From: Algibacter sp.
GTDB lineage: Bacteria > Bacteroidota > Bacteroidia > Flavobacteriales > Flavobacteriaceae
DNA: 50,104 nt
NCBI RefSeq assembly: GCF_029245835.1
Contig: NZ_JAQWOO010000036.1
Location: 1-50,104 of the forward strand
Direction of reading: 5' to 3'
The translations under genes and the position numbers were made by a program. Each line of letters opens with the position of its first letter. Within the stretch, counting starts at the first letter, position 1. Below are positions 22,645 through 46,894 of the stretch, in pieces. The notes below the pieces were generated by a model. The model made no database searches. It was not told the origin of the DNA and saw only the letters and a program-made list of their open reading frames with translations.

Positions 22645-22645
22645 A

Positions 22646-22711: not shown

Positions 22712-22779
22712 GATCTAGAATCAAAATTAAAAATAAACCCAAATCGTTTTAAACGAAATGGGTCAACCTAATAAATGCT

Positions 22780-23445: not shown

Positions 23446-23602
23446 TTATTAATTTTTTTCTTTTATCGAATAAGTCCTAGTTTATAAGAATATAAAAAAC
23501 AGCTTTATTTTAAATCTTATTTTGCTAAATCTGCAAAATTCACTTCTTCAAATTATCAAACTAACATTTTTTATATTTATACTTAATTTTTAACATTGAA
23601 AT

Positions 23603-23618
23603 TAAGTATAAATACTTA
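23603..23618. promoter_or_regulatory. Palindromic operator candidate upstream of the nitrate reductase gene
   Basis: This is a second exact copy of TAAGTAT-AA-ATACTTA, followed by G as in the nirB copy at 15474. It overlaps the TAGATTTG promoter box by two bases in the same register, which argues for one regulator acting on both nirB and the nitrate reductase gene. Confidence 0.65.
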
Positions 23619-23624
23619 GATTTG
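23617..23624 (+). promoter_or_regulatory. Putative -7 box (TAGATTTG) of the nitrate reductase gene
   Basis: TAGATTTG fits TAnnTTTG and differs by one base from the nirB box. It overlaps the right arm of the palindrome at 23603-23618. Confidence 0.55.
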
Positions 23625-23809
23625 TAAGTAATGGTATTAATTAAGCTTAATGTTTAACTATTAAATGCTTACGATAAAAAAGCAAATTTTTGACTTAGTT
23701 TTTATGGAATTAAAGATTAAAGCAGTCTTATTTGAGGTATTCTAAATAATATTAAACAGGCTTGTATTAAGATAAATTATTGTTTTAATTAGTAATAAAG
23801 TTGGTCTCA

Positions 23810-27331: not shown

Positions 27332-27334
27332 TGA

Positions 27335-27387
27335 AACATCTATTGCTAAGTAAACTAATGATTCAAAGCAATGAGTATATAGATGTT
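27335..27387 (+). other. Intergenic hairpin between nitrate reductase and rubredoxin-tailed gene
   Basis: AACATCTAT (27335-27343) pairs with ATAGATGTT (27379-27387), and inside it ATTGCT can pair with AGCAAT. A run of A residues rather than T follows, so it is not a standard terminator. It could modulate or protect the message between the two genes. Confidence 0.45.
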
Positions 27388-27423
27388 ACATGTGACTATT
27401 AAAAAAATATTATAAATAAACAC

Positions 27424-28857: not shown

Positions 28858-29251
28858 GTTTTGGTACTTAGTTAATTCTAATCAAAAACAATTCCCCGAT
28901 GCTTACATTTTAGTTTCCTCTAAAATTATTATTCCTGTTAAAACGGGAATTTAAATAAAGTGTTTCATTTTATATGTATAATGTAAACCTTCAAAATTAC
29001 TCTTTGGCTTGCACTAGGTGGTGCAGCAGTTATTAATTGAAATTACTGTAAAAGAAAATAGTGATTTTACATTGGTAAATGTTGCTAATAGATTCTGTAA
29101 TAGTGTTTCTATTCACCGATAGGTATTTGCTATTCATCTGCCGTAAAAGTTGTATGAGCTAAATTTATGTATTAGCCTAACTTATAGTCTTATTTTAGTT
29201 GAAAAGAATGGTTATTCAACCTAAAAACCTAAAATCAAATCATATTTAGAA
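28858..29251 (+). other. Intergenic region with hairpin and possible gene relic
   Basis: This gap of 394 bases has no intact gene. ATTCCTGTT (28931-28939) and AACGGGAAT (28942-28950) form a 9-bp hairpin with a two-base loop, likely ending the nitrate reductase transcript although the T-run is poor. Near 29000 a short frame reads KITLWLALGGAAVIN, then a stop, then NYCKRK. It may be debris of a small membrane protein, but it is too short to identify. Confidence 0.45.
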
Positions 29252-29728
29252 ATGAAAATAGGAATCATAATTGTGTTTCATAATAACGAAAAAGACTTTA
29301 ATGTAAACTTTCTAGCACAACAAATAGAGCGCGCTCAAAATTTAGAAATTTGTTTAGTAAATAATTGTAGTAAGGATAATACTTATCAATTACTATGTGA
29401 TATAAAGGAAATATGTAATACTAATAATGTTTCAGTTATTGATATGAAAAAATTCAAATCAGATATTTCAGCAATACGAGTGGCTGCTAAGTATATGTTG
29501 AATACCTTAAATTTAAGTTGTATAGGGTATATTTCGGCTATTTTATTGAATACTAAATATCATAACCTCAGTAAATTAATAGCGTCTGTTAACAAAAACA
29601 AAGAGCAAGTTTTTAGCCAATATATAGAAACAAAAGAAAATCAAAGCGCCAACACTTCCCTTTTTGAAAGCCTATTTTCTGTTATTAAGTACTTAGAGCA
29701 AATAAAAGAAAGTCCTGAGATTATTTAG
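29252..29728 (+). CDS. Short GT2-like glycosyltransferase-fold protein
   Basis: The 158-residue protein begins MKIGIIIVFHNNEKDF and continues with LEICLVNNCSKDNTYQLL, the opening strands of a family 2 glycosyltransferase (nucleotide-binding GT-A fold). It stops before a clear DxD metal motif or acceptor domain, so it is about half the length of a working enzyme. Either it is a short family of its own or a truncated relic that keeps an open frame. It stands alone, with AT-rich gaps of about 390 and 260 bases on its sides. Activity is doubtful. Confidence 0.65.
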   Translation: MKIGIIIVFHNNEKDFNVNFLAQQIERAQNLEICLVNNCSKDNTYQLLCDIKEICNTNNVSVIDMKKFKSDISAIRVAAKYMLNTLNLSCIGYISAILLNTKYHNLSKLIASVNKNKEQVFSQYIETKENQSANTSLFESLFSVIKYLEQIKESPEII

Positions 29729-29985
29729 TTTTCAATTTTAATTATAACTAAGCTTTAGTATGGTTTTAGTCCCTTAAAACCTGCTATGGTAGTATTAAAA
29801 CCTTTTTTCTACTCATCTACAGATAATTGCCTTTCAATTACATTTTAGAGCCACTCATCGAAATATAGTAGACATCCTTAAAATCTAATTTTATATTTGT
29901 TAAGGTATTGATTTTTAAGTAGTTGAAAAGCAAAAAAATACCGATTAAATGCAATATACATAAAAAATGTTAATTCCCAAATTAC

Positions 29986-32900
29986 ATGATAATGATTTTT
30001 AAAACTACACCAAAAAAGCAAATTTTACTTATTTTATTAATAGTATTTAGTATTGTAACCACCACAGCCCAAACTAATTTACCATACTTTACAAACTTTG
30101 AAGGTAATAATGGAGGATGGACCGATGGTGGTGATCGATCTAAATATATTGCTAACTATTTTGCAGGTGCTCCCCAAGGAAGAGGTTCTTGGGTGTTATA
30201 TAATGATGATGGTAATGACTCCTCTTTTTATAAAGATTTTAATTTAAGTGGCTATACAACAGTTACTATTTCTTTTTCATTTAAATCAAATGGTTTTGAT
30301 AACGATAAAGATTTCTTTGTAGTTAAGCTTGGTGGTACTACAATTTTAACATACAAGCATGATGATGATTGGAATGATAATAATATAAAATATACAGCCA
30401 ATATTAATTTAAGTTCAAGTAATTATACTTTTACAAATAGTTCTGAAATACGATTTGAATGCGATGCTGGTAAATCGGATTATATTTATTTTGATGAAAT
30501 TTCAATAACAGGTACAAGTCCATCACCTCCAGTAGCAGATTTTTCAGCAGATAATACAGCGCCATATACCAGTGATGTGGTTGCTTTTACAGACGCATCA
30601 ACAAATACTCCAACAAGTTGGGTATGGTCTTTTTCAAACCCTGGTAATGTTACATATGTCAACGGTAGCACGGCTACTTCTCAAAACCCTCAAGTATCGT
30701 TTAATACAACGGGGCTTTACACAGTTACCCTAACGGCAACCAATGCAGGTGGTAATGACGATGAAATTAAAACAAATTACATTAATGTAATAGAACCTGC
30801 CAGTGACAATCCTGCTACTTTTACAGTTAGCCAATCGGCAATTGCCCCATATACATTTTTTGATTACATTGCAACAGCAAATTCTAGTGGCGACCCCATA
30901 ATTATAGCTTATAATACTGTTAATTCTTTTGGAACGCCTACAACTGATGGTTCTGGTAATGCCCTAATAAACGGTAATGGTACTATTATTTTTGAAGGTA
31001 ATGTTGCTGACATAAACAGCACAATTAATTCGAATCCACTGAATCAATTAGAGCAAAATACAATTTATTATTTTAAAGCATGGTCGTTAGGTTCAGGTGG
31101 TTTTTCTCGAGGTATAGAGGTTAATGCCACAACTGCGGGCGTTGAAGCACCAAACTCTTTCACGGCAACGTCAAGTAACTCTAGTAACAATTCTTCTTTT
31201 ACAGCTACAGCAAACAGTTTAAATGATAATTTAATGCTTGTTTTTAATACCGAAGATGATTTCGGTGTTCCAGAAGATGGTGTTTTGTACCAAATTGATG
31301 ATGAAATAGGGAATGCCGTAGTACTTTTAAGTTCAGTAACGGCCGAAACCATAACCAATTATATAGATGATTTTTTGTTGTTTAATACGGTTTATTATTA
31401 CCGCATATATTCTGTGTCAAGCGGTATATGGTATTATTCTCAAGCTTATCAAGCAGATGATGTAACAACAATAACGGGTGATATTTGGCAAAATGATATT
31501 ACTACTGATACTCCAAACATTTATAACCCTTATACCATTGGCGATCAGGTAGCTACAAATATTTCAGTGTCTGGTATTTCTAGAGGCTCTGGTTTGATTG
31601 GAAATGATGATGATAATGATTACGAAGCAAGGAACTGGAATACTAGTAACAGTTTAAATCTTTCAGATAACGATTATTTTGAGTTTACTTTAACTCCAGA
31701 TACAGGATACGAAATTAACTTTTTCAAATTTTCGTATGACGCTTCAGATAGTAATGGAGATTTAAATAAAGTGGCATTGAGGTCGAGTGTAGATGGTTTT
31801 GCCTTAAATATTGGAGATGAAACAGATGGAAGGGATGGTGCGGATTTTGATTTAACTGATGATGCTTTTCAAAATATTACCGAAGCCATTACTTTTAGAA
31901 TTTATGGATGGGATGCAGATGATAGCGGTGTGGATTTTAGAATTAGAGATTTTGGATTTAAAGGTGCTATTTCCCAATATGCCATTTGGAATGGCACGAG
32001 TTGGTCTAACACAAATGGCCCAGATTTAGGCATGCGAGCTGTTATTGATGGCGATTATAATACTGGTATTGGTGGTACGCAAACAAGCTTTAGGTGTAAA
32101 GCGTTAACTGTTAATGCGGGCAACACATTAACAATAGCTAATGATACTTTTGTACAAGTAAACTACAATACATCAGGCGCCGGAAACCTTACTGTAGAAA
32201 CCAAGGGTGCTTTTGTACAAAGCGATAATGATGGCGTGTTTAACATAACAGGAACATCAAAAGTAAATAAAAGTACACCTTATAAATATGCATGGTATTA
32301 TTATACCTATTGGAGTTCGCCAGTAAAAAATATGGATATTGAAGTTGCTTTTCCTAATAGTAGAAGAAAATTCTATTGGGATGATACGTCTTCTAAATGG
32401 CAATCTGCAACCAATCAAACCATGCAAACAGGAGTAGGGTATACCATTACAGGTTCAGCAGTTGGGGTGCAAACAGTTTCGTTTGAGGGCGAGTTTAATA
32501 CAGGTACTATTACAACACCTACTATTTCTTATAATCCAGCTAACGATGAAAATTGGAGTTTAATTGGTAATCCATATCCTTCAGCTATTGATTTAGATAA
32601 GTTTCTTGGTACTAATGCGGCTGTTCTTGAGGGTGCAGCGTATTTCTGGTCTCAAGAAACGGCGCCAGTTGGAGGTCAATTTAGTGGTACAGATTATATT
32701 CCATTTAATGCCACGGGGAGTGTAAGTACAAGTCCAGATCGGGAATTTGATGGTTATGCGCCCTCTGCTCAAAGCTTTTTTATTGCAAGTAAGGCTTCAG
32801 GTAACGCTAGGTTTACCAATGCTATGCGTATGGCAGATATTGACAGTAATAGTCAATTCTTTAAAAGTGCAGGGGTTCCGCCAAAAGGATTTGATGTTGT

Positions 32901-33594
32901 TTACAACAAGTTGTGGCTTAATTTAAGTGCTGATAATGGGATATTCAGTCAAATATTAGTAGCTTATTTAAAAGGCGCTACAAACTTAGATGATGGTTTA
33001 GTTTTTGATGCTACTAAATTTGGTGAAGGTTCGGGAACTTTTTTGTATTCAACTATTGAAAACTCAAACCATAAATTTGTAATTCAAGCCAAAGATGTAA
33101 ATAGTATAAATGAAAACGAAAAAATAGCTATTGGGCTAAAAGCAAGCATAGCAACTACATATTCTATATCTATTGCTAAATTACAAGGTGATTTTTTAAG
33201 CAGAAACACCGTTTATTTAAAAGATAATTTACTTGATGTAATGCATAATTTATCTGCTAGTGATTATACCTTTACCTCTCAAATAGGGGAGTTTAATACA
33301 CGGTTTGAAATTGTATTTAATGGGCAAGCGCTTTCAAATGAAAACTTTACTATGAGCAGTGATACTATAAAAATTATTGAATTAAATAACGACGATATAC
33401 TGTTTAGCACCAGTAATAGTATCCTAATGAAAAAGATTAGTATTTATAATTTAATGGGGCAACATGTATTTGATATTAAAGCCAATAGTGCTTCAAAAAA
33501 ATATAACTTTAGAAATCAAAGCAGTTCGGTCTATTTTGCAAAAATAGCATTGGATGATGGTACAATTATAACAAAAAAATTCATTAAAAAATAA
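29986..33594 (+). CDS. T9SS-secreted multidomain surface protein with PKD domain
   Basis: The 1202-residue protein has a signal peptide ending near TTTAQ (residue 29). A jelly-roll-like N-terminal region (about 30-178) is followed by a PKD domain (about 181-266; PVADFSADNTAPYTSDVVAF to YTVTLTATNAGG). Then come two related repeats of about 110 residues containing NTIYYFKAWS and NTVYYYRIYS, a beta-rich domain, and the SLIGNPYPSAIDLDKF segment common in flavobacterial surface proteins. The last 75 residues are a type A T9SS sorting domain (KKISIYNLMGQHVFDI to GTIITKKFIKK). No catalytic domain is evident. Adhesion or polymer binding at the cell surface is a reasonable guess. Confidence 0.87.
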   Translation: MIMIFKTTPKKQILLILLIVFSIVTTTAQTNLPYFTNFEGNNGGWTDGGDRSKYIANYFAGAPQGRGSWVLYNDDGNDSSFYKDFNLSGYTTVTISFSFKSNGFDNDKDFFVVKLGGTTILTYKHDDDWNDNNIKYTANINLSSSNYTFTNSSEIRFECDAGKSDYIYFDEISITGTSPSPPVADFSADNTAPYTSDVVAFTDASTNTPTSWVWSFSNPGNVTYVNGSTATSQNPQVSFNTTGLYTVTLTATNAGGNDDEIKTNYINVIEPASDNPATFTVSQSAIAPYTFFDYIATANSSGDPIIIAYNTVNSFGTPTTDGSGNALINGNGTIIFEGNVADINSTINSNPLNQLEQNTIYYFKAWSLGSGGFSRGIEVNATTAGVEAPNSFTATSSNSSNNSSFTATANSLNDNLMLVFNTEDDFGVPEDGVLYQIDDEIGNAVVLLSSVTAETITNYIDDFLLFNTVYYYRIYSVSSGIWYYSQAYQADDVTTITGDIWQNDITTDTPNIYNPYTIGDQVATNISVSGISRGSGLIGNDDDNDYEARNWNTSNSLNLSDNDYFEFTLTPDTGYEINFFKFSYDASDSNGDLNKVALRSSVDGFALNIGDETDGRDGADFDLTDDAFQNITEAITFRIYGWDADDSGVDFRIRDFGFKGAISQYAIWNGTSWSNTNGPDLGMRAVIDGDYNTGIGGTQTSFRCKALTVNAGNTLTIANDTFVQVNYNTSGAGNLTVETKGAFVQSDNDGVFNITGTSKVNKSTPYKYAWYYYTYWSSPVKNMDIEVAFPNSRRKFYWDDTSSKWQSATNQTMQTGVGYTITGSAVGVQTVSFEGEFNTGTITTPTISYNPANDENWSLIGNPYPSAIDLDKFLGTNAAVLEGAAYFWSQETAPVGGQFSGTDYIPFNATGSVSTSPDREFDGYAPSAQSFFIASKASGNARFTNAMRMADIDSNSQFFKSAGVPPKGFDVVYNKLWLNLSADNGIFSQILVAYLKGATNLDDGLVFDATKFGEGSGTFLYSTIENSNHKFVIQAKDVNSINENEKIAIGLKASIATTYSISIAKLQGDFLSRNTVYLKDNLLDVMHNLSASDYTFTSQIGEFNTRFEIVFNGQALSNENFTMSSDTIKIIELNNDDILFSTSNSILMKKISIYNLMGQHVFDIKANSASKKYNFRNQSSSVYFAKIALDDGTIITKKFIKK

Positions 33595-35999: not shown

Positions 36000-36233
36000 G
36001 AGTAAATAAGTAATAGTATTCCCCTAAACGCAGAAAAAAAAGAACTGGGGTATATAGGAGTAATTTGAAAATTCAACAAAATGACAATAATCAATAAGCA
36101 AAATATAAGTTCAATAAGCATTTTGCTTCTGTAATAGTATATCCATCACTTTTAGCTCTATAGTTCTAAAGGATGACTTTATAAGAGATACTAACCGATA
36201 ATTTTTTTTTAAACACATAAAATAACTTAAACT

Positions 36234-37019
36234 ATGAACAGAATAGAATACATAGAATCTAATATTGCAGAATTACGGTATAAATTAAAAACACATAAAC
36301 TATATGAAAACCTAAAACATGTTGATGATATAAAAGTGTTTATGGAAAATCATGTTTTTGCTGTATGGGATTTTATGTCGTTATTAAAAGCTATTCAATT
36401 AGAACTTACTTGCACTAAGGTGCCTTGGATTCCCAAAAAAAATGGCACACTAGCACGATTTATAAATGAGATTGTACATGGGGAAGAAAGCGATGTTAAT
36501 GAGCTAGGGGAAGCTAAAAGCCATTTTGAAATGTACTGTGATGCTATGAAGCAAATAGGGGCAGATACCTCGCAAATAGACTTATTTATTAATCTTATTT
36601 CATCAGGTAATGATTTGGAATATGTTTTAGATCAATTAGAAATAGAAGACGCCGTTTCAGATTTTATAAAATTTACGTTTCAAGTAATAGCTAGTAAAGA
36701 ATCTCATATTATAGCTTCAGTATTTACATTTGGACGAGAAGATGTAATTCCTGATATGTTTCTTGAAATATTAAAAAATTCAGATTCTGATAACATATCC
36801 AATAGCAAACTTATATATTATTTAGAGCGACATATTGAGTTAGATGGTGATGAACATGGACCATTATCTCTTAAAATGATTTCCGAACTTTGTGGGGATA
36901 GTGATGAAAAATGGGAATTCGCTTTAATTTTTGCTAAATTAGCTCTTAAAAAGCGTATTAAATTGTGGGATTCGATAAATCATTTAATTGAAAATAAAAA
37001 GACCATTGTTTACTTTTAG
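36234..37019 (+). CDS. DUF3050 protein, heme-oxygenase-like helical fold
   Basis: The 261-residue protein matches DUF3050: [78 protein letters not shown] and [17 protein letters not shown]. The spaced His/Glu/Asp residues, especially H-x3-D-x3-H in [10 protein letters not shown] and E-x-H in KESH, recall metal ligands of heme-oxygenase-like diiron oxygenases. A metal-dependent oxidase role is inference. It is the first gene of the H-NOX operon, 16 bases before the receiver gene, so it could be an enzyme serving that pathway rather than a sensor. Confidence 0.83.
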
Positions 37020-37035
37020 TATTTAAATTATATAA

Positions 37036-37449
37036 ATGATGAAATCTTTAAAAATTCTTCTTATAGAAGATGATATTATTGAAGTAATGAAACTTAACCG
37101 AGTTGTATCTTCTTTAAAGCTGAAACACAAAATAATTGAAGCCAATAATGGCGAGGAGGCACTCACTATTTTAGAGCAAAATACGATAATACCAGATATT
37201 ATCTTACTCGACCTGAATATGCCAAAATTAAGTGGTATTGAATTTTTGTCTATTTTAAAAAAAAGTAAAGATTTTAATTGTATTCCAACTATTATTTTAA
37301 CAACATCCAATAATTCTAGAGATATCTTAAAGTGTTTTGAAATTGGGGTTTCTGGGTATGTTATAAAACCCTTAAAGTATGAGGATTATGTTTATAAAAT
37401 CGAAAAATTACTAGCCTATTGGAGTATTAATGAAATAGTTGAAAAATAA
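37036..37449 (+). CDS. Stand-alone CheY-like receiver
   Basis: The 137-residue protein is a single receiver domain of the Rcp1 type. It has the acidic pair in LLIEDD (residues 11-13), phospho-acceptor Asp59 in IILLDLNMPKLSG, Thr in ILTTSNN and Lys111 in YVIKPL. It has no output domain. Its stop codon overlaps the H-NOX start (TAATG). It may accept or drain phosphate from the kinase at 37988 or from the HPt protein. Confidence 0.9.
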   Translation: MMKSLKILLIEDDIIEVMKLNRVVSSLKLKHKIIEANNGEEALTILEQNTIIPDIILLDLNMPKLSGIEFLSILKKSKDFNCIPTIILTTSNNSRDILKCFEIGVSGYVIKPLKYEDYVYKIEKLLAYWSINEIVEK

Positions 37450-37988
37450 TGAAAGGCATTGTGTTTACTGAGTTTTTAGAAATGGTTGAAGAAAAATATG
37501 GACTTGAAATGGTTGACGATATTATTGAAAATACCAATTTGCAGTCTCAAGGTGCCTATACTTCAGTAGGCACTTATGCGTTTTCTGAAATGTTACAGTT
37601 ACTTCAAAATTTAAGTCTAAAAACTAAAATATTAGTAGATGATTTGTTATTAATTTATGGTGAACATTTTTTTAATTTATTAGAAAAAAATTATCCAAGT
37701 TTTTTTTCGGTATACCATGACCCTATTCAGATGTTGGCTTCTATCGAGGATCATATACATGTTGAGGTTTTAAAAATTTACCCAGATGCTGAACTGCCAA
37801 CTTTTGAGGTCGTTTATAGAAAACAAGATACTTTAATAATGATTTACAAATCCAGTAGAGCCATGCATCATTTTGGTTTGGGATTAATGCATAAAACCTT
37901 TGAATATTTTAATTCTAAAGCGACTATAGTTTTAGAAAAAATAAAACAAGATGGTACAGAGGTTAAGTTTGTTATTACTAAAAATTAA
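37449..37988 (+). CDS. H-NOX heme nitric oxide/oxygen binding sensor
   Basis: The 179-residue protein is a stand-alone H-NOX domain, a cytosolic b-type heme sensor related to the heme domain of soluble guanylate cyclase. The proximal heme ligand is His104 in DHIHVEVLKIYPDAELP. The heme-propionate motif Y-x-S-x-R is intact as Y133, S135 and R137 in MIYKSSRAM. Stand-alone H-NOX proteins in Shewanella and Vibrio bind NO and inhibit a co-encoded histidine kinase. Here it overlaps the upstream receiver gene and the downstream kinase gene by single bases (TAATG twice), so coupled translation and direct interaction with the kinase are likely. Confidence 0.93.
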   Translation: MKGIVFTEFLEMVEEKYGLEMVDDIIENTNLQSQGAYTSVGTYAFSEMLQLLQNLSLKTKILVDDLLLIYGEHFFNLLEKNYPSFFSVYHDPIQMLASIEDHIHVEVLKIYPDAELPTFEVVYRKQDTLIMIYKSSRAMHHFGLGLMHKTFEYFNSKATIVLEKIKQDGTEVKFVITKN

Positions 37989-40474
37989 TGAGTAAAAATA
38001 AAATTGACATATTACAACGTGCTCTTAACCGAGAAAAAGCGGCTAGGAAGGAAGCTGAAAAAATACTAGAAGCAAAAGCTACAGAACTTTATAATTCAAA
38101 CAAAACGTTAGAAAAGTTAAATGCTGGTTTAGAATCGTTGCTTAATAGATCAGACTCCCAATTACAGGGCGTATTTGAAAATATTGTAGATGCTTATATT
38201 ATAATGGATTTAAATTTTAATATCCTTAAAATGAACAAGTCCGCTATGGCCATGTTAGGGTTTAATACTGATAAAGCAGACTACAATTTGTCAAAAATGG
38301 TGCAACCACATGATTATAAAAGGGTTGGAAATTCGTTCCAAGAATTAATGAAAGATGGTATTTTAACTGATTTTGAAATACAAATAAAAAATAATAATAA
38401 CAAAATCATTATTACCCATATTAATGCCAGTATTATTTATGATAAAGGAATTCCTGTAGCAGCTCAAGGAATTTTAAGAGACATTACAGCTTTAAAGGAA
38501 AATGAATTCATTACAGAAGTTATTAATAATATTACACAATCCATTCTTGGCACCATGGATATTTATGAAATAGCTTCAAAAATAACTGAGAAATTAGCAA
38601 AGTACCTAAAAACAGATGATTGCGTTATTTATGCTGTAAACCACGAAGAAAATCAGGTAGAACAAATTGCCGCCAGTGGCGAGAAAATTGATATTACTGG
38701 CGATATAGTAAACAGATTAAAATTTAATATAGGGAGTGGTATTGTTGGTTCGGTTGCGAAAACAGGTAAATCTGAAATTATACATGACACAAGTAAAGAT
38801 GCCCGTTATATAACTGATATTTCACGAAACTACTCAGAACTTACCGTGCCAATCATTATTGAAAACGAAGTAATTGCTGTAATTGATTCTGAGCATCCAA
38901 ATAAAAACCATTTCACTAAAGTTCAGCTTGGTACCATTGAAAATATTGCACGAATTATTGCCTTAAAAATAAAGAATGCCATAAGTTTAAACGAAAAAGA
39001 ACGCGCTCAAAAAAGACTTTTAAAATCCGAGGAGCGTTTAAGAACCTTAATATCCAGTCTTGAAAGTGGCATCCTTTTAGAAGATGAAAACAGAAAAATT
39101 GTTTTAACAAATTCTAAATTTTGTGAGATGTTTAACATTCCTGCATTGCCAGAGCATATGGTTGGTGCAGATTGTACCGATGCAGCAGAACAAAGTAAAC
39201 ACCTTTTTGAAAACCCCAATGGTTTTACTAAGCGCATAAAAAGTATTTTATTAAAAAAAGAAACCGTTTTATCTGATGAACTAGAAATGAGTAATGGAAA
39301 AATTCTTGAAAGAGATTATATTCCATTATTTAGCGGAAAGCATTATTCAGGTCATTTATGGAGTTATAGGGATGTTACACTTCAAAAAAAATATAGAAAA
39401 AGTTTAGAATCCCAAAGACAAAAATACAGCAGTATTATAGCTAATATGAATTTAGGTCTTTTAGAGGTAGATAATGATGATAGGATACTAATGTGTAATC
39501 AAAGTTTTTCTAAAATCTCGGGATATGACGAACAAGCTTTATTGGGCAAACGGGGAGGCGATGTGTTTCTAGATGAAAACGCTTTAAAACTATTACAGAA
39601 GCAAAGTGAATTGCGGCTAGAAGGGCAATCAAATTCTTACGAAATTGAAGTAAATAATAAAGCTGGAGAAAAACGTACTTGGTTAATAAGTGGCGCACCA
39701 AATTATAATTTAAACGGAAAAATTATTGGCTCCATAGGCATACACTTAGATATTACAGATCAAAAAAAGCTAGAATTAGAAAAGGAAAATTTAGTAGAAA
39801 TACTAAAAAATAAAAATGCGGAACTTCAAGAATATGCCCAAATTGTTTCTCACGATTTAAAATCACCCTTGCGGAATATAAGTGCCTTAACCACTTGGAT
39901 TAAGGACGATAATTTTACAAGTTTGAATGAAACTAGCTTAAAGTATTTTGATCACTTAGAACAAACGCTAGAGCGCATGGAAGCCTTAATTACTGGTATT
40001 TTAAAATATTCTAGTATTAACTCCGAGTCTGGACAAAACCAAACCATAGATTTAAACCATACTGTTCTTGAGATTATTAAAATGCTTCATGTTCCAGAAC
40101 ATATACATATTTCTATTAAAGGAGAACTTCCAAATATATATGGAGACAAAATAAAATTCCATCAACTGTTTCAAAATTTATTGAATAATGCCGTAAACCA
40201 CATTGACAAAGAAAAAGGAGAAATAGAATTAGGTTGTGAAATAAAGAGCAAAGAATATTTGTTTTATATAAAAGATAATGGTGTTGGAATTGATAAAAAA
40301 TACCATCAACAAATTTTTAAAATATTTTATTACATAACTAAAAATAAACATTCAACAGGTATAGGATTATCTATTGTGAAAAAAATAATAGAAATTTATG
40401 GAGGTGAAATTTGGGTTGATTCTGTGCCAAAAGTTGGGACTACATTCTATTTTACCATAAAAAAGACACATTAA
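37988..40474 (+). CDS. Cytoplasmic PAS-GAF-PAS-PAS histidine kinase (H-NOX partner)
   Basis: The 828-residue kinase has no transmembrane segment. In order it has an N-terminal coiled coil (1-50), a PAS domain (about 55-175), a GAF domain (about 180-335), a linker, two more PAS domains (about 345-465 and 475-600), a HisKA domain with phospho-acceptor His622 in EYAQIVSHDLKSPLRNIS, and an HATPase domain (LFQNLLNNAVNHI, IKDNGVGID, STGIGLSIVKKIIE). No receiver is attached, so phosphate must leave to a separate protein. The adjoining HPt and two receivers fit. The H-NOX gene overlaps its start and the HPt gene overlaps its stop, both TAATG. Confidence 0.92.
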   Translation: MSKNKIDILQRALNREKAARKEAEKILEAKATELYNSNKTLEKLNAGLESLLNRSDSQLQGVFENIVDAYIIMDLNFNILKMNKSAMAMLGFNTDKADYNLSKMVQPHDYKRVGNSFQELMKDGILTDFEIQIKNNNNKIIITHINASIIYDKGIPVAAQGILRDITALKENEFITEVINNITQSILGTMDIYEIASKITEKLAKYLKTDDCVIYAVNHEENQVEQIAASGEKIDITGDIVNRLKFNIGSGIVGSVAKTGKSEIIHDTSKDARYITDISRNYSELTVPIIIENEVIAVIDSEHPNKNHFTKVQLGTIENIARIIALKIKNAISLNEKERAQKRLLKSEERLRTLISSLESGILLEDENRKIVLTNSKFCEMFNIPALPEHMVGADCTDAAEQSKHLFENPNGFTKRIKSILLKKETVLSDELEMSNGKILERDYIPLFSGKHYSGHLWSYRDVTLQKKYRKSLESQRQKYSSIIANMNLGLLEVDNDDRILMCNQSFSKISGYDEQALLGKRGGDVFLDENALKLLQKQSELRLEGQSNSYEIEVNNKAGEKRTWLISGAPNYNLNGKIIGSIGIHLDITDQKKLELEKENLVEILKNKNAELQEYAQIVSHDLKSPLRNISALTTWIKDDNFTSLNETSLKYFDHLEQTLERMEALITGILKYSSINSESGQNQTIDLNHTVLEIIKMLHVPEHIHISIKGELPNIYGDKIKFHQLFQNLLNNAVNHIDKEKGEIELGCEIKSKEYLFYIKDNGVGIDKKYHQQIFKIFYYITKNKHSTGIGLSIVKKIIEIYGGEIWVDSVPKVGTTFYFTIKKTH

Positions 40475-40791
40475 TGGATGCGCCAAGTTTAATATATATA
40501 AATAAATTATCAAACGGAGATGCCGTTTTTTCAAAAAAGTTGATTACTGTTATGAAAGCAGAATTTCCTATAGAAAAGAGACTATATAACAAAAATATAA
40601 GTTTAAAAAGATTTAAATTAGCCGCAGAAAATGTACATAAAATAAAGCATAAAATAAGTATTTTAAGTTTTGAAAAAGGATACATGTTAGCAACTCAACA
40701 TGAGGAAAACTTAACTGATAACAATAATAGTTTAGAACAGAAATTTGAGGAGGTTTTAAACACAATTACGAAATATTTAAATTTAATATAA
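40474..40791 (+). CDS. HPt (histidine phosphotransfer) protein
   Basis: This 105-residue all-helical protein carries FKLAAENVHKIKHKISILSF. Within it, H55-x-I-K fits the HxLK core of HPt domains, making His55 the likely phospho-acceptor, with the helix continuing to EKGYMLA. The start overlaps the kinase stop (TAATG). The LytTR regulator gene follows 8 bases later. It would relay phosphate from a receiver such as the one at 37036 to the LytTR regulator. The family call rests on the motif, size and context because HPt sequences are weakly conserved. Confidence 0.8.
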   Translation: MDAPSLIYINKLSNGDAVFSKKLITVMKAEFPIEKRLYNKNISLKRFKLAAENVHKIKHKISILSFEKGYMLATQHEENLTDNNNSLEQKFEEVLNTITKYLNLI

Positions 40792-40799
40792 GATATTAT

Positions 40800-41537
40800 A
40801 TGAATTGTATAATAGTAGATGATGAAGCTACGGCAAGAGCAATTTTAAATCAATTGTGTTCAGCGATTACAGGTTTAAATGTTATTGCAGAATTTGAAAA
40901 TGTAGATCAAGTAATAGATTTTTTAAAACATAAAAAAGTAGATCTTATTTTATTAGATATTCATATGCCAGATTTTTCAGGCTTTGACTTTATTAATGCA
41001 TTAGAAAATGGAGAATTAAAACAAGCTCTTACAATAGTCCCTAAAATTATATTTACAACCTCTGATAAGAACTTTGCTATTGAATCTTACGAATATGATT
41101 TTGTTATGGATTATTTACTAAAGCCTATTTTGCCAAACCGTTTTAATAAAGCAATTAAGAAAGTAAAAAAAACAGTTTCTCAAAAATCAAAAATTAGTTT
41201 AGCAAGCAATTCTGAAAAAGTTTCAGATAATCAACTGTTTATAAATATCGATAAGCGCTTAATAAAAATAGATGTCTCAAGTATATGTTTAGTAGAAGCT
41301 AAAGGAGATTATATTAATTTAAAAACCGATAAAACAAATTACATAGTTCATTCCTCTTTAAAAAAAATTAAAGATAAATTACCTACTTCTCTATTTTTTA
41401 GAGTACATAGATCTTATATCATTAATGTTCATAAAATTACAGGAATTGAAGATAATACAGTGCTAATTAATAAAGATTTAATCCCTATTAGTAGGTCTAG
41501 TAAGACTGAACTAATGAAGCGGATTAATTTATTATAA
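40800..41537 (+). CDS. LytTR-family response regulator
   Basis: The 245-residue regulator has a receiver domain (1-125; VDDEATA, phospho-acceptor Asp53 in LILLDIHMPDFSG, Lys in YLLKPI) and a LytTR DNA-binding domain (about 145-245; IDVSSICLVEAKGDYINLKT, FRVHRSYIINVHKITGIE). It is the last gene of the H-NOX operon and the only member with a DNA-binding output. The pathway therefore ends in transcription rather than cyclic di-GMP turnover. Confidence 0.92.
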   Translation: MNCIIVDDEATARAILNQLCSAITGLNVIAEFENVDQVIDFLKHKKVDLILLDIHMPDFSGFDFINALENGELKQALTIVPKIIFTTSDKNFAIESYEYDFVMDYLLKPILPNRFNKAIKKVKKTVSQKSKISLASNSEKVSDNQLFINIDKRLIKIDVSSICLVEAKGDYINLKTDKTNYIVHSSLKKIKDKLPTSLFFRVHRSYIINVHKITGIEDNTVLINKDLIPISRSSKTELMKRINLL

Positions 41538-41928: not shown

Positions 41929-42285
41929 ATGGGAGGAAAAATTATACACCTAAAAGATTACAGGTTATCAAACAAATCATTAAACAAAAAGGTGGTGAAT
42001 TCTGCTGGTTATAATTACAATTCGAATTCGAATTCGAATCAAAACACCTCTAATAAAAAAACCGAAAATAACATAAGTTATGAAGCATTAATTTCCTTCA
42101 TAATTAAATATGGTATTAAAGTTCAAGAAAATGATTCAAAAATGTATACCGCATTAATGAATAAATATCATAAATCTATTATGTTTTATGGTGTAAAATA
42201 TTATTTGCCACTTTATAAATTTTATAAAGAAAAAAAAACATTATTTGATTATTTGATTGAAAATTATAATACCCATGAAAATTAA
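41929..42285 (+). CDS. Small protein of unknown function with Ser-Asn repeat
   Basis: The 118-residue protein starts MGGKIIHLKDYRLSNKSL. It has a low-complexity Asn/Ser stretch (about residues 29-45) encoded in part by an AATTCG repeat, and a helical Tyr/Lys-rich C-terminal half (EALISFIIKYGIKVQEND...YHKSIMFYGVKYYLPLYKFY). I do not recognise the family. It sits between two terminators, so it is transcribed alone. The composition is soluble and basic, with no signal peptide. Confidence 0.6.
   Translation: MGGKIIHLKDYRLSNKSLNKKVVNSAGYNYNSNSNSNQNTSNKKTENNISYEALISFIIKYGIKVQENDSKMYTALMNKYHKSIMFYGVKYYLPLYKFYKEKKTLFDYLIENYNTHEN
42019..42039 (+). repeat. AATTCG hexanucleotide repeat inside a coding region
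   Basis: AATTCG occurs three times in tandem plus AAT, encoding alternating Asn and Ser. Because the unit is six bases, copy-number changes would keep the reading frame and only lengthen or shorten the linker. Confidence 0.8.
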
Positions 42286-42429: not shown

Positions 42430-42462
42430 AAACCAGCACTTTTTTAAGTGCTGGTTTCTTTT
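42430..42462. terminator. Bidirectional terminator between the small gene and moaA
   Basis: AAACCAGCACTT (42430-42441) pairs perfectly with AAGTGCTGGTTT (42446-42457) around TTTT. T residues follow on the plus side and a TTTTG tract follows on the minus side. It overlaps the moaA stop region and serves the convergent genes. Confidence 0.85.
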
Positions 42463-43468
42463 AGCCTCCAATAGTAATCATACTTCGGTTATTATTACGC
42501 AATTTAGGTTCTTCTAGTTTCTCTAAAGTATCCATACCACCTCTAATTTTAAACTTAGCTTTTACCGCTTTTTCAATGATTGGTTCAATCGATTTCCCTG
42601 CGCGTAGCACCGTTAATAAATCGGATTCGCCAGAGGAGAACAAACAGTTTTTTAATTGTCCGTTAGCTGTTAGACGCAATCTGTTACACGAATCGCAAAA
42701 CGGATTGGTTACAGAACTAATAATGGCAAAACTGCCTTTATATCCTTTTATCTTATAGTTTTTAGAAGTATCGTTTGGCGCATCCTGCAAGCGCTCAATA
42801 CGTTGCTCAGGAAAAGCATCATTAACAAAACTCATAACTTCAGCATAAGAAACCATTTTGGCCATATTCCATTTATTCCCATCAAAAGGCATAAATTCTA
42901 TAAAGCGCACTGAGATTGGTAAATCTTTTGTAAAATTGATAAAATCAATAATTTCATTATCATTAAACCCTTTCATTAAAACGGCATTTACTTTTACAGT
43001 GAAGCCTTCTTTAACGAGTAATAATATATTGTTGTAAACTTTTTTAAATTCTGCTCTTCGAGTGATGTGTTTAAATTTTCCTTCGTCTAAAGAGTCTAAA
43101 CTCACATTAATCTTTTTGACTCCATTGGCTTTTAAAACGTCTATAAACTTGTCAATAATAACAGCGTTTGAAGTTATGGAAAGTTCAACAGGAAGTGTTG
43201 CTAGTTTTTCTAAAATAACTGGAATATCCTTTCTAATTAAAGGTTCGCCACCTGTCAATCGAATTTTAGTAACGCCGTTATTAACAAAAGTTTTAGCAAT
43301 TTCATAAATTTCTTCATAAGTCATTAAACGACTTTTTGGAGATAATTTCACACCTTCTTCGGGCATACAATACGTACAACGTAAATTACATCGTTCAATT
43401 AAAGAAATACGCAGGTAAGCGTGGTCTCTACCGTGTGCATCTTGTAATATGTTTTTATCGTTTTTCAT
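42461..43468 (-). CDS. moaA: GTP 3',8-cyclase MoaA
   Basis: The 335-residue radical-SAM enzyme catalyses, with MoaC, the conversion of GTP to cyclic pyranopterin monophosphate, the first step of molybdenum cofactor synthesis. The SAM-cluster motif is ERCNLRCTYCMP (C27, C31, C34). The second [4Fe-4S] site is in NPFCDSCNRLRLTANGQLKNCLFS. LTGGEPLIR and the C-terminal Gly-Gly tail, needed for activity in known MoaA proteins, are present. It is the last gene of the minus-strand cofactor operon and starts one base inside the end of moaC-mogA. Confidence 0.96.
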   Translation of the reverse strand: MKNDKNILQDAHGRDHAYLRISLIERCNLRCTYCMPEEGVKLSPKSRLMTYEEIYEIAKTFVNNGVTKIRLTGGEPLIRKDIPVILEKLATLPVELSITSNAVIIDKFIDVLKANGVKKINVSLDSLDEGKFKHITRRAEFKKVYNNILLLVKEGFTVKVNAVLMKGFNDNEIIDFINFTKDLPISVRFIEFMPFDGNKWNMAKMVSYAEVMSFVNDAFPEQRIERLQDAPNDTSKNYKIKGYKGSFAIISSVTNPFCDSCNRLRLTANGQLKNCLFSSGESDLLTVLRAGKSIEPIIEKAVKAKFKIRGGMDTLEKLEEPKLRNNNRSMITIGG

Positions 43469-44379
43469 TAATCGTGTCTCGCACCTTTTAAAATTCTGAA
43501 AATATGTAGTACTGATGGAAAAATGGCTTCCATAGATTCTTTTGCACCGTTTGTTGAACCCGGTAAAGCCAAAACCAATGTGCTATTTATTGTTCCTGCT
43601 ACACTTCTTGAAAGCATGGCATAAGGCATTCGGTCTTGTCCGTAATTCCGGATGGCTTCTTCAATACCAAGGATGCGTCTATCCAGAATCGGTATTAAAG
43701 CTTCTGGTGTAACGTCGCGTCCTGAAAGTCCTGTTCCGCCTGTGTAAACAATTAAATCAATACCTTGTCCTTGGAAAGCTTTAGCTTTTTCTTGAATCAC
43801 ATCTTTTTCATCTGGAATTATAATGTATTCTGATATTTTAACATCACAAGATTCTAACTTCTCAATAATCGCTTTTCCTGCTTTATCTTCTTTTTGTCCT
43901 CCAGAAATAGTATCAGAACAAACCACAACCGCAGCAGTTAAATCCTTTCTAAATTTATCTTTAAAATCAGATTTTCCACCTTTTTTATTCAAGAGTTTAA
44001 TGGCATGAATCTCAATACCTTTGTCTATAGGTTTTAGCATGTCGTACATATTCAAAGCTACAACACTAGCGCCATGCATAGCTTCAACTTCAACACCAGT
44101 TTTGTAGATAGTTTTCACTGTAAATAAAACTGTAATTTCTAGGCCATCAATTTTGTATTCAATACCTGTAAACTCGATAGGCAAGGGGTGGCAGTCGGGT
44201 AAAATATCTGGTGTACGTTTTACACCAAGTAAACCAGCGGCTTTACTCATGGCAAAAACATTGCCTTTTGGAACGGTATCGTTTTCTATGGCTTGAATGG
44301 TTTCTAGTTTGCTAACCTTAACTATAGCTTGAGCTACTGCGGTTCTTAATGTGGTTACTTTATGAGTGATATCGACCAT
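43468..44379 (-). CDS. moaCB: Bifunctional MoaC-MogA/MoaB fusion
   Basis: The 303-residue protein joins two cofactor enzymes. Residues 1-140 are cyclic pyranopterin monophosphate synthase MoaC (MVDITHK, LPDCHPLPIE, VEVEAMHGASVVALNMYDMLK, KGGKS). Residues about 145-303 are a molybdopterin adenylyltransferase of the MogA/MoaB family (VVVCSDTISGG, IVYTGGTGLSGRDVTPEA, RSVAGTINSTLVLALPGSTNGAKES). The fusion couples the first pathway step with the later adenylylation. Both halves are full length. An inverted repeat lies between this gene and moaE. Confidence 0.94.
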   Translation of the reverse strand: MVDITHKVTTLRTAVAQAIVKVSKLETIQAIENDTVPKGNVFAMSKAAGLLGVKRTPDILPDCHPLPIEFTGIEYKIDGLEITVLFTVKTIYKTGVEVEAMHGASVVALNMYDMLKPIDKGIEIHAIKLLNKKGGKSDFKDKFRKDLTAAVVVCSDTISGGQKEDKAGKAIIEKLESCDVKISEYIIIPDEKDVIQEKAKAFQGQGIDLIVYTGGTGLSGRDVTPEALIPILDRRILGIEEAIRNYGQDRMPYAMLSRSVAGTINSTLVLALPGSTNGAKESMEAIFPSVLHIFRILKGARHD

Positions 44380-44406
44380 TTTTCGATTGTTATTTAGTTG
44401 TTTGTT

Positions 44407-44443
44407 GTTTAGTTGTTAGCGACTTAACGACTAACAACTAAAC
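44407..44443. repeat. Inverted repeat between moaE and moaC-mogA
   Basis: GTTTAGTTGTTAG (44407-44419) and CTAACAACTAAAC (44431-44443) are perfect 13-bp arms around an 11-base spacer. With no T-run it is more likely an mRNA-stabilising or processing hairpin inside the operon than a terminator. Confidence 0.7.
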
Positions 44444-44453
44444 TAAATACATT

Positions 44454-44897
44454 TTACGAGTTTACTTTCCATTGATGTGATTCGTCTTCAAAAATCTCTT
44501 TTCCAAAAACGGGGACATCTGCTTTTATCGCTTCAACAATATATTCTAAAGCTTCAAAAACCACTTTTCGTCTTGGTGATGATACAAATACAAACAAGCA
44601 TATTTCTCCTGCTTTTACAGTTCCTAAACTATGATAAATATGCATACAAGTGAGGTTGAATTTTTCAAAAGCCGATTCTCTAATCTCATGAAATTTCTGA
44701 TTTGCCATGTCTTCATAAGCGGTATATTCAATCGCTGAAACTTTTTTGCCATCAATCTCATCTGCTCTTACTTGTCCAAGGAAAATGTTATGTGCACCAA
44801 TACTGGTTTTGGTTTGGTGCTTATAAATGGAATTCCCTATAAATTCTGAAGTTATTGCACCTTCTTTAAATACGCTTTTTGGTTTTTTATCTTTCAT
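44454..44897 (-). CDS. moaE: Molybdopterin synthase catalytic subunit
   Basis: The 147-residue MoaE subunit joins with MoaD to insert two sulfur atoms into cyclic pyranopterin monophosphate. Family blocks are GAHNIFLGQVRADE, AIEYTAYEDMANQKF, HIYHSLGTVKAGEICLFVFVSSPRRKVVFEALEYIVEAIKADVPVFGKEIFED. These include the conserved Arg and the two catalytic-region lysines. Its start overlaps the end of moeB by 11 bases. Confidence 0.94.
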   Translation of the reverse strand: MKDKKPKSVFKEGAITSEFIGNSIYKHQTKTSIGAHNIFLGQVRADEIDGKKVSAIEYTAYEDMANQKFHEIRESAFEKFNLTCMHIYHSLGTVKAGEICLFVFVSSPRRKVVFEALEYIVEAIKADVPVFGKEIFEDESHQWKVNS

Positions 44898-45972
44898 TTG
44901 ATAATACTTTTATGTAATTATTTATTTCTGTTGCGCCTTGCTTTAAGCTGAAACAGTCTTTGATGTTAAGTTTAGTTAACAATTCAACTGCTTGTTTGCT
45001 TCTAACTCCTGTTTGACAAAAAAGGATTTTCTTTGTATCTGAATCAATCTTGTTTAAATTCTGTTCTAGTTGACTAAGAGGAATATTTATGACATCTATA
45101 CTTTTGACTTTTGGTAATTCTTGAGATTCTCTAACATCAATAAATATAATAAGTTCTTCTGATAGGATGTCTTCTATTGAAACTTCTAGTGTGTCAGCAT
45201 TACAATCGATATTTAAGTGATTCTTTTGAAAGTGATTTTTTTCTTTTAAGATAGATTGAAAAACGGCTTCATTTTTATTCACCTTTAATGTTGATGTTTG
45301 AGAGGTCAAAGCATTATAACATAACAGCTTTCCTGAAAGCACATTACCAATGCCTAAAACAATCTTTAAAACTTCATTGGCTTGCATACTTCCAATGATT
45401 CCAGGTAACACACCTAAAACACCTATTTCTGAACAATTTGGTACCGCATCTTTTTTTGGAGGCGTTGGGAATAAACACCGGTAACTTGGTCCGTTTTGAA
45501 AATTAAAAACTGAAACCTGCCCTTCAAATTTATAAATGGCTCCAAAGACTAAAGGTTTGTTTGTAATGATGCAAGCATCATTAACCAAATAACGTGTTTC
45601 AAAGTTATCAGAACCATCTACAATAATATCATATTGATTAAATAGTTCTAAAGCATTTTGATATGTTAACTGCATCGGATAAGCAATTATCGAGATATCA
45701 TCATTTAAATCTTCCAAACGTGCTTTTGCAGCAATAGCTTTGTTTTTTACTAATGAAGCTGTTCCAAATAAAATTTGGCGTTGTAAATTGGATAGTTCAA
45801 CATCATCAAAATCAATAACACCAATAGTTCCAATACCCGAGGCAGTTAGGTATTGCAGTATAGGGCAGCCTAAACCACCAGCACCAATAACCAATACTTT
45901 GGCATTAGATATCTTGTCTTGACCTGCTTGACCAATTTCTGATAAAATGATATGTCTGTTGTACCTACTCAT
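44887..45972 (-). CDS. moeB: MoeB-like adenylyltransferase with rhodanese domain
   Basis: The 361-residue protein activates the C-terminal glycine of MoaD. Its E1-like domain (1-240) has RHIILSEIGQAGQDKI, VLVIGAGGLGCP, the DGSDNFETRY block, and CLFPTPPKKDAVPNCSEIGVLG. A rhodanese domain fills residues about 265-361, with the active-site loop FCQTGVRSK, so the protein could also supply persulfide sulfur. It may equally serve thiamine ThiS, since ThiF and MoeB are close relatives. The cofactor operon context favours MoeB. Confidence 0.92.
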   Translation of the reverse strand: MSRYNRHIILSEIGQAGQDKISNAKVLVIGAGGLGCPILQYLTASGIGTIGVIDFDDVELSNLQRQILFGTASLVKNKAIAAKARLEDLNDDISIIAYPMQLTYQNALELFNQYDIIVDGSDNFETRYLVNDACIITNKPLVFGAIYKFEGQVSVFNFQNGPSYRCLFPTPPKKDAVPNCSEIGVLGVLPGIIGSMQANEVLKIVLGIGNVLSGKLLCYNALTSQTSTLKVNKNEAVFQSILKEKNHFQKNHLNIDCNADTLEVSIEDILSEELIIFIDVRESQELPKVKSIDVINIPLSQLEQNLNKIDSDTKKILFCQTGVRSKQAVELLTKLNIKDCFSLKQGATEINNYIKVLSNER

Positions 45973-45975
45973 AAA

Positions 45976-46092
45976 TTCCTGTGAAGGCAGGAATCTCTTC
46001 CTACCATTTTAATGCTATAAGTTTTCATAAACCTTTTGATTTATTTTTTATGCTTCAAACCTACAAGGTTTTTAAAACCTCTCAGGTAGGTT
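45976..46092. repeat. Flavobacterial-type palindromic repeats between moaD and moeB
   Basis: TTCCTG-TGAAGG-CAGGAA (45976-45993) is an element type common in flavobacterial intergenic regions. AACCTACAAGGTTTT with AAAACCT and CAGGTAGGTTTT (about 46047-46092) is a relative of the elements at 18217 and 22688. They fill the only sizeable gap (120 bases) in the middle of the cofactor operon. Confidence 0.6.
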
Positions 46093-46332
46093 TTACCCAC
46101 CAGCAAAAGGCGGTAATAATGCAATGTCTGCTCCAGTTAATTTAGTTTCAAATGAAACTAATTCTTGATTCTGTGCGACTTGAAAATCTTTAGTTTTTAA
46201 GGTGTTATATTTTCTATAAAGCGTTTCTAAAAGTTCTTTTATATAAGTTCCAGAAAACGCTATAGATTCTTCCTCTATATGTGTTATTTCTGTTAATTGT
46301 CCAAAATATTTAATAGTAATTTGCATTTTCAA
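46093..46332 (-). CDS. moaD: Molybdopterin synthase sulfur carrier subunit
   Basis: The 79-residue ubiquitin-like protein ends in ALLPPFAGG, the Gly-Gly tail that MoeB adenylates and that then carries the thiocarboxylate. It has the usual MoaD length and beginning (ITIKYFGQLTEIT). Its start overlaps the end of mobA by 23 bases, and it precedes moeB after the repeat-containing gap. Confidence 0.93.
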   Translation of the reverse strand: MKMQITIKYFGQLTEITHIEEESIAFSGTYIKELLETLYRKYNTLKTKDFQVAQNQELVSFETKLTGADIALLPPFAGG

Positions 46333-46894
46333 TGGCTTTTAATTCGGTTTGAGTATTCACATTCATTGTTGAGAACTCCTGTTTTTTTTCTAATACTATA
46401 TTTTTCGATATACAATTCATAATAGCAACGCGTAATCGTCTTTCATCTTCTTGTAACAGCGTTTTGAACGTGTTTATAATTTGTTTTTTATATAGGGCTA
46501 TTAATGGCATGGTTTTGCCTTTGCTTTCCACTTGAATAATTTCTGAAGTATCGTCTATAGCATCAATTAATTTTTGAAGTATTTTAGAAGTAATTAAAGG
46601 AACATCACAGCTTAATATTATATTGTATTCAGAAAAAGATGCTTCTAATCCAGAGCATATTCCAGCTACAGGGCCAGCATTTTTTGTTATGTCATCTACT
46701 CGTTTTAATCCAAAAATATCATATTTAGAATCATCTGAAACAATAATTATTTCCGAAACTAATGGTTGTAATGCATCAATGCTGTATTGAACAAATGGTT
46801 TGTCATTCAACAATAAAAACCCTTTATCAGTACCCATTCGAGAACTTTTTCCACCTGCTAAAATTATTCCTGTTATGTTTTTTTTATCAACCAT
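46310..46894 (-). CDS. mobA: Molybdenum cofactor guanylyltransferase
   Basis: The 194-residue nucleotidyltransferase transfers GMP from GTP to Mo-molybdopterin, giving the dinucleotide cofactor used by the nitrate reductase and the YdeP-like enzyme. Motifs are GIILAGGKSSRMGTDKGFL (residues 9-27), IIVSDDSKYDIFGLKRVDD, AGPVAGICSGLEAS and the metal-site SCDVPLI. The presence of mobA matches the DMSO-reductase-family enzymes encoded nearby. It overlaps moaD and lies one base after the permease stop. Confidence 0.93.
   Translation of the reverse strand: MVDKKNITGIILAGGKSSRMGTDKGFLLLNDKPFVQYSIDALQPLVSEIIIVSDDSKYDIFGLKRVDDITKNAGPVAGICSGLEASFSEYNIILSCDVPLITSKILQKLIDAIDDTSEIIQVESKGKTMPLIALYKKQIINTFKTLLQEDERRLRVAIMNCISKNIVLEKKQEFSTMNVNTQTELKAIENANYY

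Follow-up and report, generated by a model that had tools for sequence, protein, structure and literature searches.

What an H-NOX haem sensor might control, and by which route, is the question raised by a row of six co-oriented genes in Algibacter sp. (Flavobacteriaceae). The row lies on the forward strand of contig NZ_JAQWOO010000036.1 (assembly GCF_029245835.1), of which the whole 50,104-nucleotide stretch that was analysed is referred to below as the window. An earlier reading of this DNA from its letters (hereafter the sequence-only reading) had proposed a six-gene H-NOX phosphorelay ending in a LytTR-type DNA-binding regulator. Open reading frame (ORF) calls and the sequence itself agreed with it on the six genes, their order and strand (36234-41537, from the DUF3050 gene to the LytTR regulator gene) and their junctions, which measure 16 bases, three times TAATG, and 8 bases:

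36234..37019, + strand: DUF3050 gene (haem-oxygenase-like, predicted di-iron), lineage-specific first gene (PF11251, E 4e-99)
37036..37449, + strand: stand-alone receiver, Rcp1/DrRR-like, phospho-acceptor Asp59 (Pfam Response_reg, E 5e-21)
37449..37988, + strand: H-NOX haem sensor with His104 and Tyr133-x-Ser135-x-Arg137 (Pfam HNOB, PF07700, E 1.4e-39, residues 2-160)
37988..40474, + strand: soluble PAS-GAF-PAS-PAS histidine kinase (Pfam: three PAS stretches, GAF, HisKA and HATPase; no receiver)
40474..40791, + strand: histidine-phosphotransfer (HPt) protein of 105 residues, presumed phospho-His55 (relatives' Pfam Hpt matches, conserved His55, predicted fold)
40800..41537, + strand: receiver-LytTR DNA-binding response regulator, Asp53 (LytTR, E 2e-20; Response_reg, E 7.5e-19)

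The core unit consists of five of these genes, i.e., those for the receiver, H-NOX, kinase, HPt protein and LytTR regulator. Its best explanation, which we consider probable, is a nitric oxide (NO)-controlled His-Asp-His-Asp relay carried by separate proteins, with a LytTR output to surface proteins and polysaccharide. The H-NOX haem would bind NO and thereby alter, in one direction or the other, the activity of the co-encoded soluble kinase, whereupon phosphate would pass from the kinase His to the Asp of the stand-alone receiver, on to the His of the HPt protein and finally to the Asp of the LytTR regulator. Once phosphorylated, this regulator would bind an AlgR-like direct repeat (CCATTCGTCKACACT), often in two copies 21 bp apart, and would act on its own operon as well as on genes that encode exported surface proteins or serve polysaccharide synthesis; in this way, NO may govern attachment or behaviour in biofilms. 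Roughly half of the relatives add a FIST (NosP-type) protein and a dedicated kinase, which would feed into the same HPt protein and regulator. The window operon lacks this second branch, and the window's boxes are found further upstream, ahead of a short gene and of the gene for a 1202-residue, probably exported protein.

Recurrence of the five-gene core in the Flavobacteriaceae

H-NOX (PF07700) was present in 146 of 397 genomes from the same family (Flavobacteriaceae) and in 27 of 395 genomes drawn from the phylum. The loci sampled for comparison were 146 H-NOX loci in 143 genomes, with the window's genome excluded and with two fragmentary matches (G112 and G327) and one sub-cut-off match (G076:C2) omitted; 145 of them were mapped, the H-NOX of the remaining locus (L148) having escaped the window query. 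The gene order, whose comparison across relatives the sequence-only reading had suggested, proved well conserved. At least 121 of the 145 mapped loci hold the receiver, H-NOX, kinase, HPt and LytTR genes in intact order, with or without FIST and a second kinase (66 with FIST, 51 without it, 2 with DUF3050, 1 with a doubled kinase, and 1 with FIST and an extra gene before the LytTR gene). Among the remaining loci, some end at contig edges and others lack the HPt gene, the LytTR gene or both on the simple ORF map.

The DUF3050 gene adjoins the operon in 2 of the 145 mapped loci, as well as in the window and in a locus from a metagenome-assembled genome (MAG; L238). Of 199 family genomes, 81 carry it, 2 of them no more than 5 kb from H-NOX. 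Because it is so widespread in the family yet so rarely at the operon, DUF3050 was rejected as a core member and looks like a passenger of one lineage; the six-gene system of the sequence-only reading thus stands as a conserved five-gene relay core, but not in its DUF3050 membership. A solved relative of the DUF3050 protein exists (9vwb), in a record without a stated function, and the fold has been described as haem-oxygenase-like and predicted di-iron (PMC4520260).

A haem sensor presumed to respond to NO

The sequence-only reading had described a stand-alone H-NOX with an intact proximal His and Y-S-R motif, and His104, Tyr133, Ser135 and Arg137 are indeed all present in the window protein. 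Among the aligned H-NOX proteins, His104 occurs in 145 of 146, Tyr133 and Ser135 in all 146 and Arg137 in 139; in the H-NOX of locus L147, Tyr replaces the proximal His104 within an otherwise similar operon. The closest solved structures, 6bde and 6bdd, align ungapped over all 179 residues (E 2e-82 and 1.5e-81, respectively). These two entries differ from each other at residue 71 (window 37659-37661), where 70 of the 146 H-NOX proteins have Gly and 68 have Ala, and which we take to be possibly the glycine hinge familiar from H-NOX work.

We take the position equivalent to Tyr140 to be set by its spacing from the YxSxR motif, and at this presumed position 144 of the 146 H-NOX proteins carry Phe or Leu. 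Tyr140 is the O2-stabilising residue in H-NOX (PMC7356049). Because of this substitution, together with general knowledge of H-NOX proteins, NO is the presumed ligand. It seems unlikely that the main signal is another one, whether O2, redox state or haem sensed by the H-NOX, or an input taken up mainly by the PAS and GAF domains of the kinase. The kinase does carry four sensory domains of its own, and a heme-free H-NOX of Vibrio cholerae can act as a redox sensor in vitro (PMC8738867), but the Phe or Leu at the Tyr140 position fits an NO sensor, and more than half of the mapped loci (77/145) add a FIST (NosP-type) protein to the operon.

A proposed second branch with a FIST (NosP-type) protein

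In these 77 loci, the first kinase is followed by a protein of 377 residues and a second, ~350-residue kinase. The one representative scanned matched both FIST N (E 1e-37) and FIST C (E 2e-37) in Pfam, and 77 loci fall in its cluster; no solved relative of the FIST protein was found at E 0.1. Since FIST is the family of NosP (PMC8738867), the presence of FIST and a second kinase in 77 of 145 loci suggests that two unrelated candidate NO sensors feed one output. FIST genes near H-NOX are also reported in a review, in a cluster (group 1) with representatives including Cellulophaga and Runella (PMC8738867, PMC7108781). Two regular expressions written for the second kinase matched 0 of 78 and 40 of 78 sequences, respectively, and no claim is based on them.

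FIST and the second kinase are present in two genomes of the same genus (L034 and L046) and absent from the window operon. Elsewhere in the window's genome, contig C59 (L210:7618-10400) holds a FIST match with three internal stop codons, outside the H-NOX operon and adjoining a kinase that looks hybrid by sequence.

The H-NOX position itself appears to be exchangeable. Six loci of genus g127 (L224-L229) give the family's usual scores for the receiver, both kinases and FIST; an HPt protein was found in four of the six and LytTR in five. Their H-NOX proteins, however, score only 16-26 bits against the window protein, to which they are 17-23% identical, while keeping His104 and Tyr133 in all six, Ser135 in five and Arg137 in four.

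A proposed four-step relay on separate proteins

The predicted domains of the kinase agree with the sequence-only reading, which had described it as soluble, with a PAS-GAF-PAS-PAS arrangement and no receiver. Regular expressions revealed an N-terminal signature common to the H-NOX-linked first kinases in 136 of 146, an H-box in 140, an N-box in 117 and a receiver-like motif in 1. As a receiver-like pattern is found in only that one kinase, a four-step relay would need a separate receiver. The stand-alone receiver lies directly 5′ of H-NOX in 141 of 145 loci, and for this reason looks integral to the operon. Its Asp59 and Lys111 are conserved in 142 of 142 aligned relatives, and its nearest solved structures include phytochrome response regulators. 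In Ulvibacter litoralis (L132 / L234), an additional kinase is situated between the receiver and H-NOX.

The receiver could instead be a phosphate sink or a separate effector, with the kinase reaching the HPt protein or the LytTR regulator otherwise and the pathway being branched, which we regard as possible without expecting it. The resemblance to Rcp1/DrRR-type stand-alone receivers would fit such a role, as would the retention of the receiver in some loci in which neither HPt nor LytTR was mapped (e.g., L135 and L137). Against this, the operon supplies exactly the receiver that is missing from a His-Asp-His-Asp chain, and both the constant position of the receiver next to H-NOX and the rarity of the receiver pattern in the first kinases argue against a mere sink. 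We retain the linear relay, in the presumed order kinase, receiver, HPt protein and LytTR regulator.

For the fifth protein, two results count against its assignment as an HPt protein: the window protein alone gave no significant match to Pfam Hpt (PF01627), and no Foldseek match of its model reached E 0.001 or better, though the top matches were HPt domains (3myf, TM 0.78; BarA, 0.73; ShpA, 0.69). Similarly, a PDB profile search with 40 members gave weak matches throughout, among which HPt 1sr2 came third (E 0.42). These 40 members (the window protein and 39 of 120 listed relatives) included 26 that matched Pfam Hpt at E 0.01 or better; the member from L122 reached 22.2 bits against a cut-off of 24.6. 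The AlphaFold model, built with seven sequences, predicts five helices at a mean pLDDT of 94.8, and His55 is conserved in 129 of 129. Despite the silence of Pfam on the window protein itself, the HPt label given by the sequence-only reading is upheld by the relatives' Pfam matches and the predicted fold.

At the end of the presumed chain, the LytTR regulator has Asp53 and Lys108 conserved in 130 of 130 sequences, and the catalytic residues of the receiver, HPt protein and LytTR regulator are near-invariant as a whole.

An AlgR-like box upstream of the operon

The promoters of the receiver genes share the motif CCATTCGTCKACACTTA, a 17-bp AlgR-like box of which the first nine bases (CCGTTCGTC) are identical to the AlgR consensus (CCATTCGTC) at eight of nine positions (PMC4064291). 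A box of more than 8 bits precedes the receiver gene in 127 of 141 loci, compared to a mean of 1.9 in letter-shuffled promoters, the matrix having been derived from the very promoters in which these boxes were counted. Two or three sites are present in 83 of the 127 promoters, and neighbouring sites are spaced by 21 bp in 80 of 86 pairs. Across all mapped loci, 401 sites exceeded 12 bits, versus 29 for the reversed matrix. Among ten loci outside the matrix derivation, nine had a site before the receiver gene (L214, L224-L227, L229, L231, L232 and L239) and one, L228, had none (4.3 bits). Left out of this check were L238 (of the DUF3050 type, with no site before the receiver gene), three loci that repeat training loci (L230, L233 and L234), and L235-L237, for which no adjoining receiver gene was mapped.

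The box also goes together with the LytTR gene. When the 4 truncated loci among the 141 were dropped, the remaining 137 comprised 121 with both, 7 with neither, 3 with the box only and 6 with the regulator only, in a count that is uncorrected for kinship; two of the regulator-only loci (L069 and L109) are of the DUF3050 type, with a box further upstream. This co-occurrence provides evidence of its own for a LytTR-type transcriptional output, as the sequence-only reading had proposed from a protein that does carry both LytTR and Response_reg domains. Moreover, a strict pattern of the box matched 35 times in 12 whole genomes, versus 6 times for the reversed pattern. Of the 35, 27 were located within 35 kb of H-NOX, all 27 on the H-NOX strand, compared to 0 of the 6 control matches.

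The same counts bear on whether the 21-bp box might be bound by another LytTR regulator of the cell, the operon then being a mere target. The window genome holds three further LytTR domains, and in the three counted box-only loci as well as in L229 a box is present although the mapped operon has no LytTR gene. Box presence nevertheless follows the operon's own LytTR gene (121 + 7 loci versus 3 + 6), and most strict genome-wide sites lie close to H-NOX, so that we find this alternative improbable. Binding of the box by the regulator encoded in the operon stays part of the preferred relay reading, as a prediction.

Besides the circularity of the matrix and the shared ancestry of the loci, several results weigh against a box-driven output of the relay. 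L229, which falls outside the above count, has a strong box (18.6 bits) with no LytTR gene in its map. The mapped loci contain 374 clusters of sites scoring above 10 bits, of which 133 precede a receiver gene and 51 a DUF6923 gene, but 86 precede no gene start within 450 bp. The clustering near H-NOX fails in some genomes (0 of 2 matches in G143 and in G321, 1 of 3 in G164, and no matches at all in G000 and G071). The genome of the window itself yielded 0 matches to the strict pattern and 25 to a relaxed one, barely above the 17 control matches. Within the window, a box directly before the operon was sought and none found, as no site exceeded 4.6 bits on the + strand in 36000-36233, before the DUF3050 gene or the receiver gene, while an isolated site of 10.9 bits at 13396 is on the minus strand inside a gene. 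Because the whole-genome patterns fail in this genome, only the paired sites with 21-bp spacing in the window are claimed.

Candidate targets in relatives and in the window

In the relatives, a box of more than 10 bits was present within 300 bp upstream of 44 of 49 DUF6923 genes, taken as an exported-protein family, compared to 96 of 1914 other genes. Of these 96, 60 come from nine clusters (134 genes) that were selected for a closer look, and 36 from the other 1780 genes. The picked clusters, whose names are each taken from one representative, had a box before genes for a CAP-domain protein (10/10), a glycosyltransferase (13/17), STAS (12/25), polysaccharide synthesis (6/24) and a UDP-sugar dehydrogenase (5/8), and three unassigned clusters had it in 6/6, 4/6 and 4/4. 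The ninth cluster, genes for a TPR protein that is common downstream, was rejected as a target, with a box in 0 of 34. Two full DUF6923 members were scanned for a type IX secretion system sorting tail, with a match over the cut-off in one and under it in the other. A DUF6923, CAP, STAS or polysaccharide-type gene lies in the sampled flank of 96 of 145 loci.

In the window, the paired boxes and the candidate targets, inferred from the box upstream, are as follows (scores from a position weight matrix):

29109..29146, + strand: LytTR-type box pair with two repeats at 21-bp spacing, ahead of the 158-residue gene (pair score 17.0)
29252..29728, + strand: ORF for a 158-residue protein with a weak glycosyltransferase-2 match (PF00535, E 5e-5), candidate target
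29809..29867, + strand: LytTR-type box with repeats at 29809, 29830 and 29851 (21-bp period), upstream of the 1202-residue gene (pair scores 15.6 at 29809 and 11.7 at 29830)
29986..33594, + strand: 1202-residue protein with a PKD domain (PKD_4 over cut-off), probably exported (Por_Secre_tail 22.2 bits, below the cut-off of 27), candidate target

These three 21-bp pairs stand out, as the next best pair on either strand scores below 0 and the maximum over 200 simulated windows was 10.4. A simple degenerate pattern matched 3 times in the window versus 1.48 expected, which is non-significant, and the box claim for the window is therefore based on the pair score. Both these boxes with their likely targets (29109-33594) and the FIST sensor with its second kinase in relatives go beyond the sequence-only reading.

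In Jejuia pallidilutea (L230) and in the flavobacterial MAG (L238), a homologue of the 1202-residue gene immediately precedes DUF3050 and the relay, and likewise has a site before it (12.4 and 17.8 bits, respectively). In the promoter alignment, one repeat is near-identical between the window and Jejuia and is not retained in L238. In the window, three more genes separate the 1202-residue gene from DUF3050 and the relay. Downstream, the window encodes a 118-residue protein (41929-42285), relatives of which are found downstream of the relay in the same two loci.

Nitrate and nitrite genes in the neighbourhood

The sequence-only reading had pointed to neighbouring nitrate/nitrite genes as a plausible NO source. 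Such genes are present, in a cluster at 13058-28857 with two molybdopterin oxidoreductases, a NirB-like reductase, a PilJ-domain kinase and a LuxR-type regulator, but they look assimilatory, and their supplying NO is therefore a guess. A gene pair encoding a nitrate-reductase-like protein and a rubredoxin ends at 28857, and relatives of its second gene flank 15 of 145 loci. On the minus strand at 42461-46894 are genes that we take to be molybdenum-cofactor-like.

Comparison with known systems

In the Bacillus Spo0 phosphorelay, the kinase, lone receiver, phosphotransfer protein and DNA-binding regulator are likewise separate proteins; Spo0B and Spo0A belong to other families than the HPt and LytTR proteins here, and the Spo0 genes are scattered. 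In the HnoX-HnoK-HnoB/C/D systems of Shewanella and Vibrio, H-NOX controls a kinase that phosphorylates receivers, and the output is cyclic di-GMP turnover. The core studied here consists instead of a receiver, kinase, HPt protein and LytTR regulator (neighbours were scanned in part for GGDEF/EAL). In the Vibrio circuits with LuxU, the HPt and regulator genes are located elsewhere in the genome, whereas the present operon encodes all parts together, with the receiver on a protein of its own and a LytTR output.

That H-NOX proteins control kinases which phosphorylate receivers has been stated in general terms (PMC8738867). The Vibrio H-NOX/HqsK-LuxU-LuxO and NosP/VpsS-LuxU circuits resemble the relay proposed here in that a soluble kinase is acted on by a haem sensor carrying NO, phosphate travels via an HPt protein to a DNA-binding regulator, and HPt proteins of one kind receive the input from H-NOX or NosP (PMC6769237, PMC8738867). 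They differ in having a hybrid kinase and in sharing LuxU with quorum-sensing receptors (PMC6769237). The operon in the window does not fit the HqsK-LuxU-LuxO type of circuit, with its hybrid kinase and LuxO-type regulator, as the window kinase has no receiver and the regulator is LytTR. As for the box, AlgR of Pseudomonas is also a LytTR regulator, with alginate and biofilm genes among its targets (PMC4064291); in the present case, an H-NOX is encoded alongside the regulator, many boxes form 21-bp tandems, and the sites are concentrated near the operon.

The structure 6bdd is that of an H-NOX from Kordia algicida, which has been called the least studied of the crystallised H-NOX proteins (PMC7356049), and the text of that paper, as far as examined, gives no pathway for it. 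A literature search (H-NOX with LytTR, flavobacteria, NosP, HPt or Bacteroidetes), outside of which most subscription papers fell, returned no description of the operon with its HPt protein, LytTR regulator or DNA box. The novel elements here are the branch of FIST and second kinase in 77 of 145 loci, and the 17-bp box before the operon and before exported-protein genes.

Taken over the family, we lean slightly towards a dual-sensor NO switch, in which two unrelated haem sensors (H-NOX and a FIST/NosP-type protein), encoded in one operon and each paired with a separate kinase, would converge on one HPt protein and one LytTR regulator. Through its own AlgR-like tandem box, this regulator would control local genes for exported surface proteins and polysaccharide. 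The H-NOX slot could then be refilled by a distant H-NOX (17-23% identity), with most of the rest staying in place. Such a dual-sensor operon would allow H-NOX and NosP to be compared inside one pathway. For this part of the Bacteroidota, the system amounts to a concrete candidate circuit from NO to transcription that is complete in itself, with its parts named and both its DNA site and its targets predicted.

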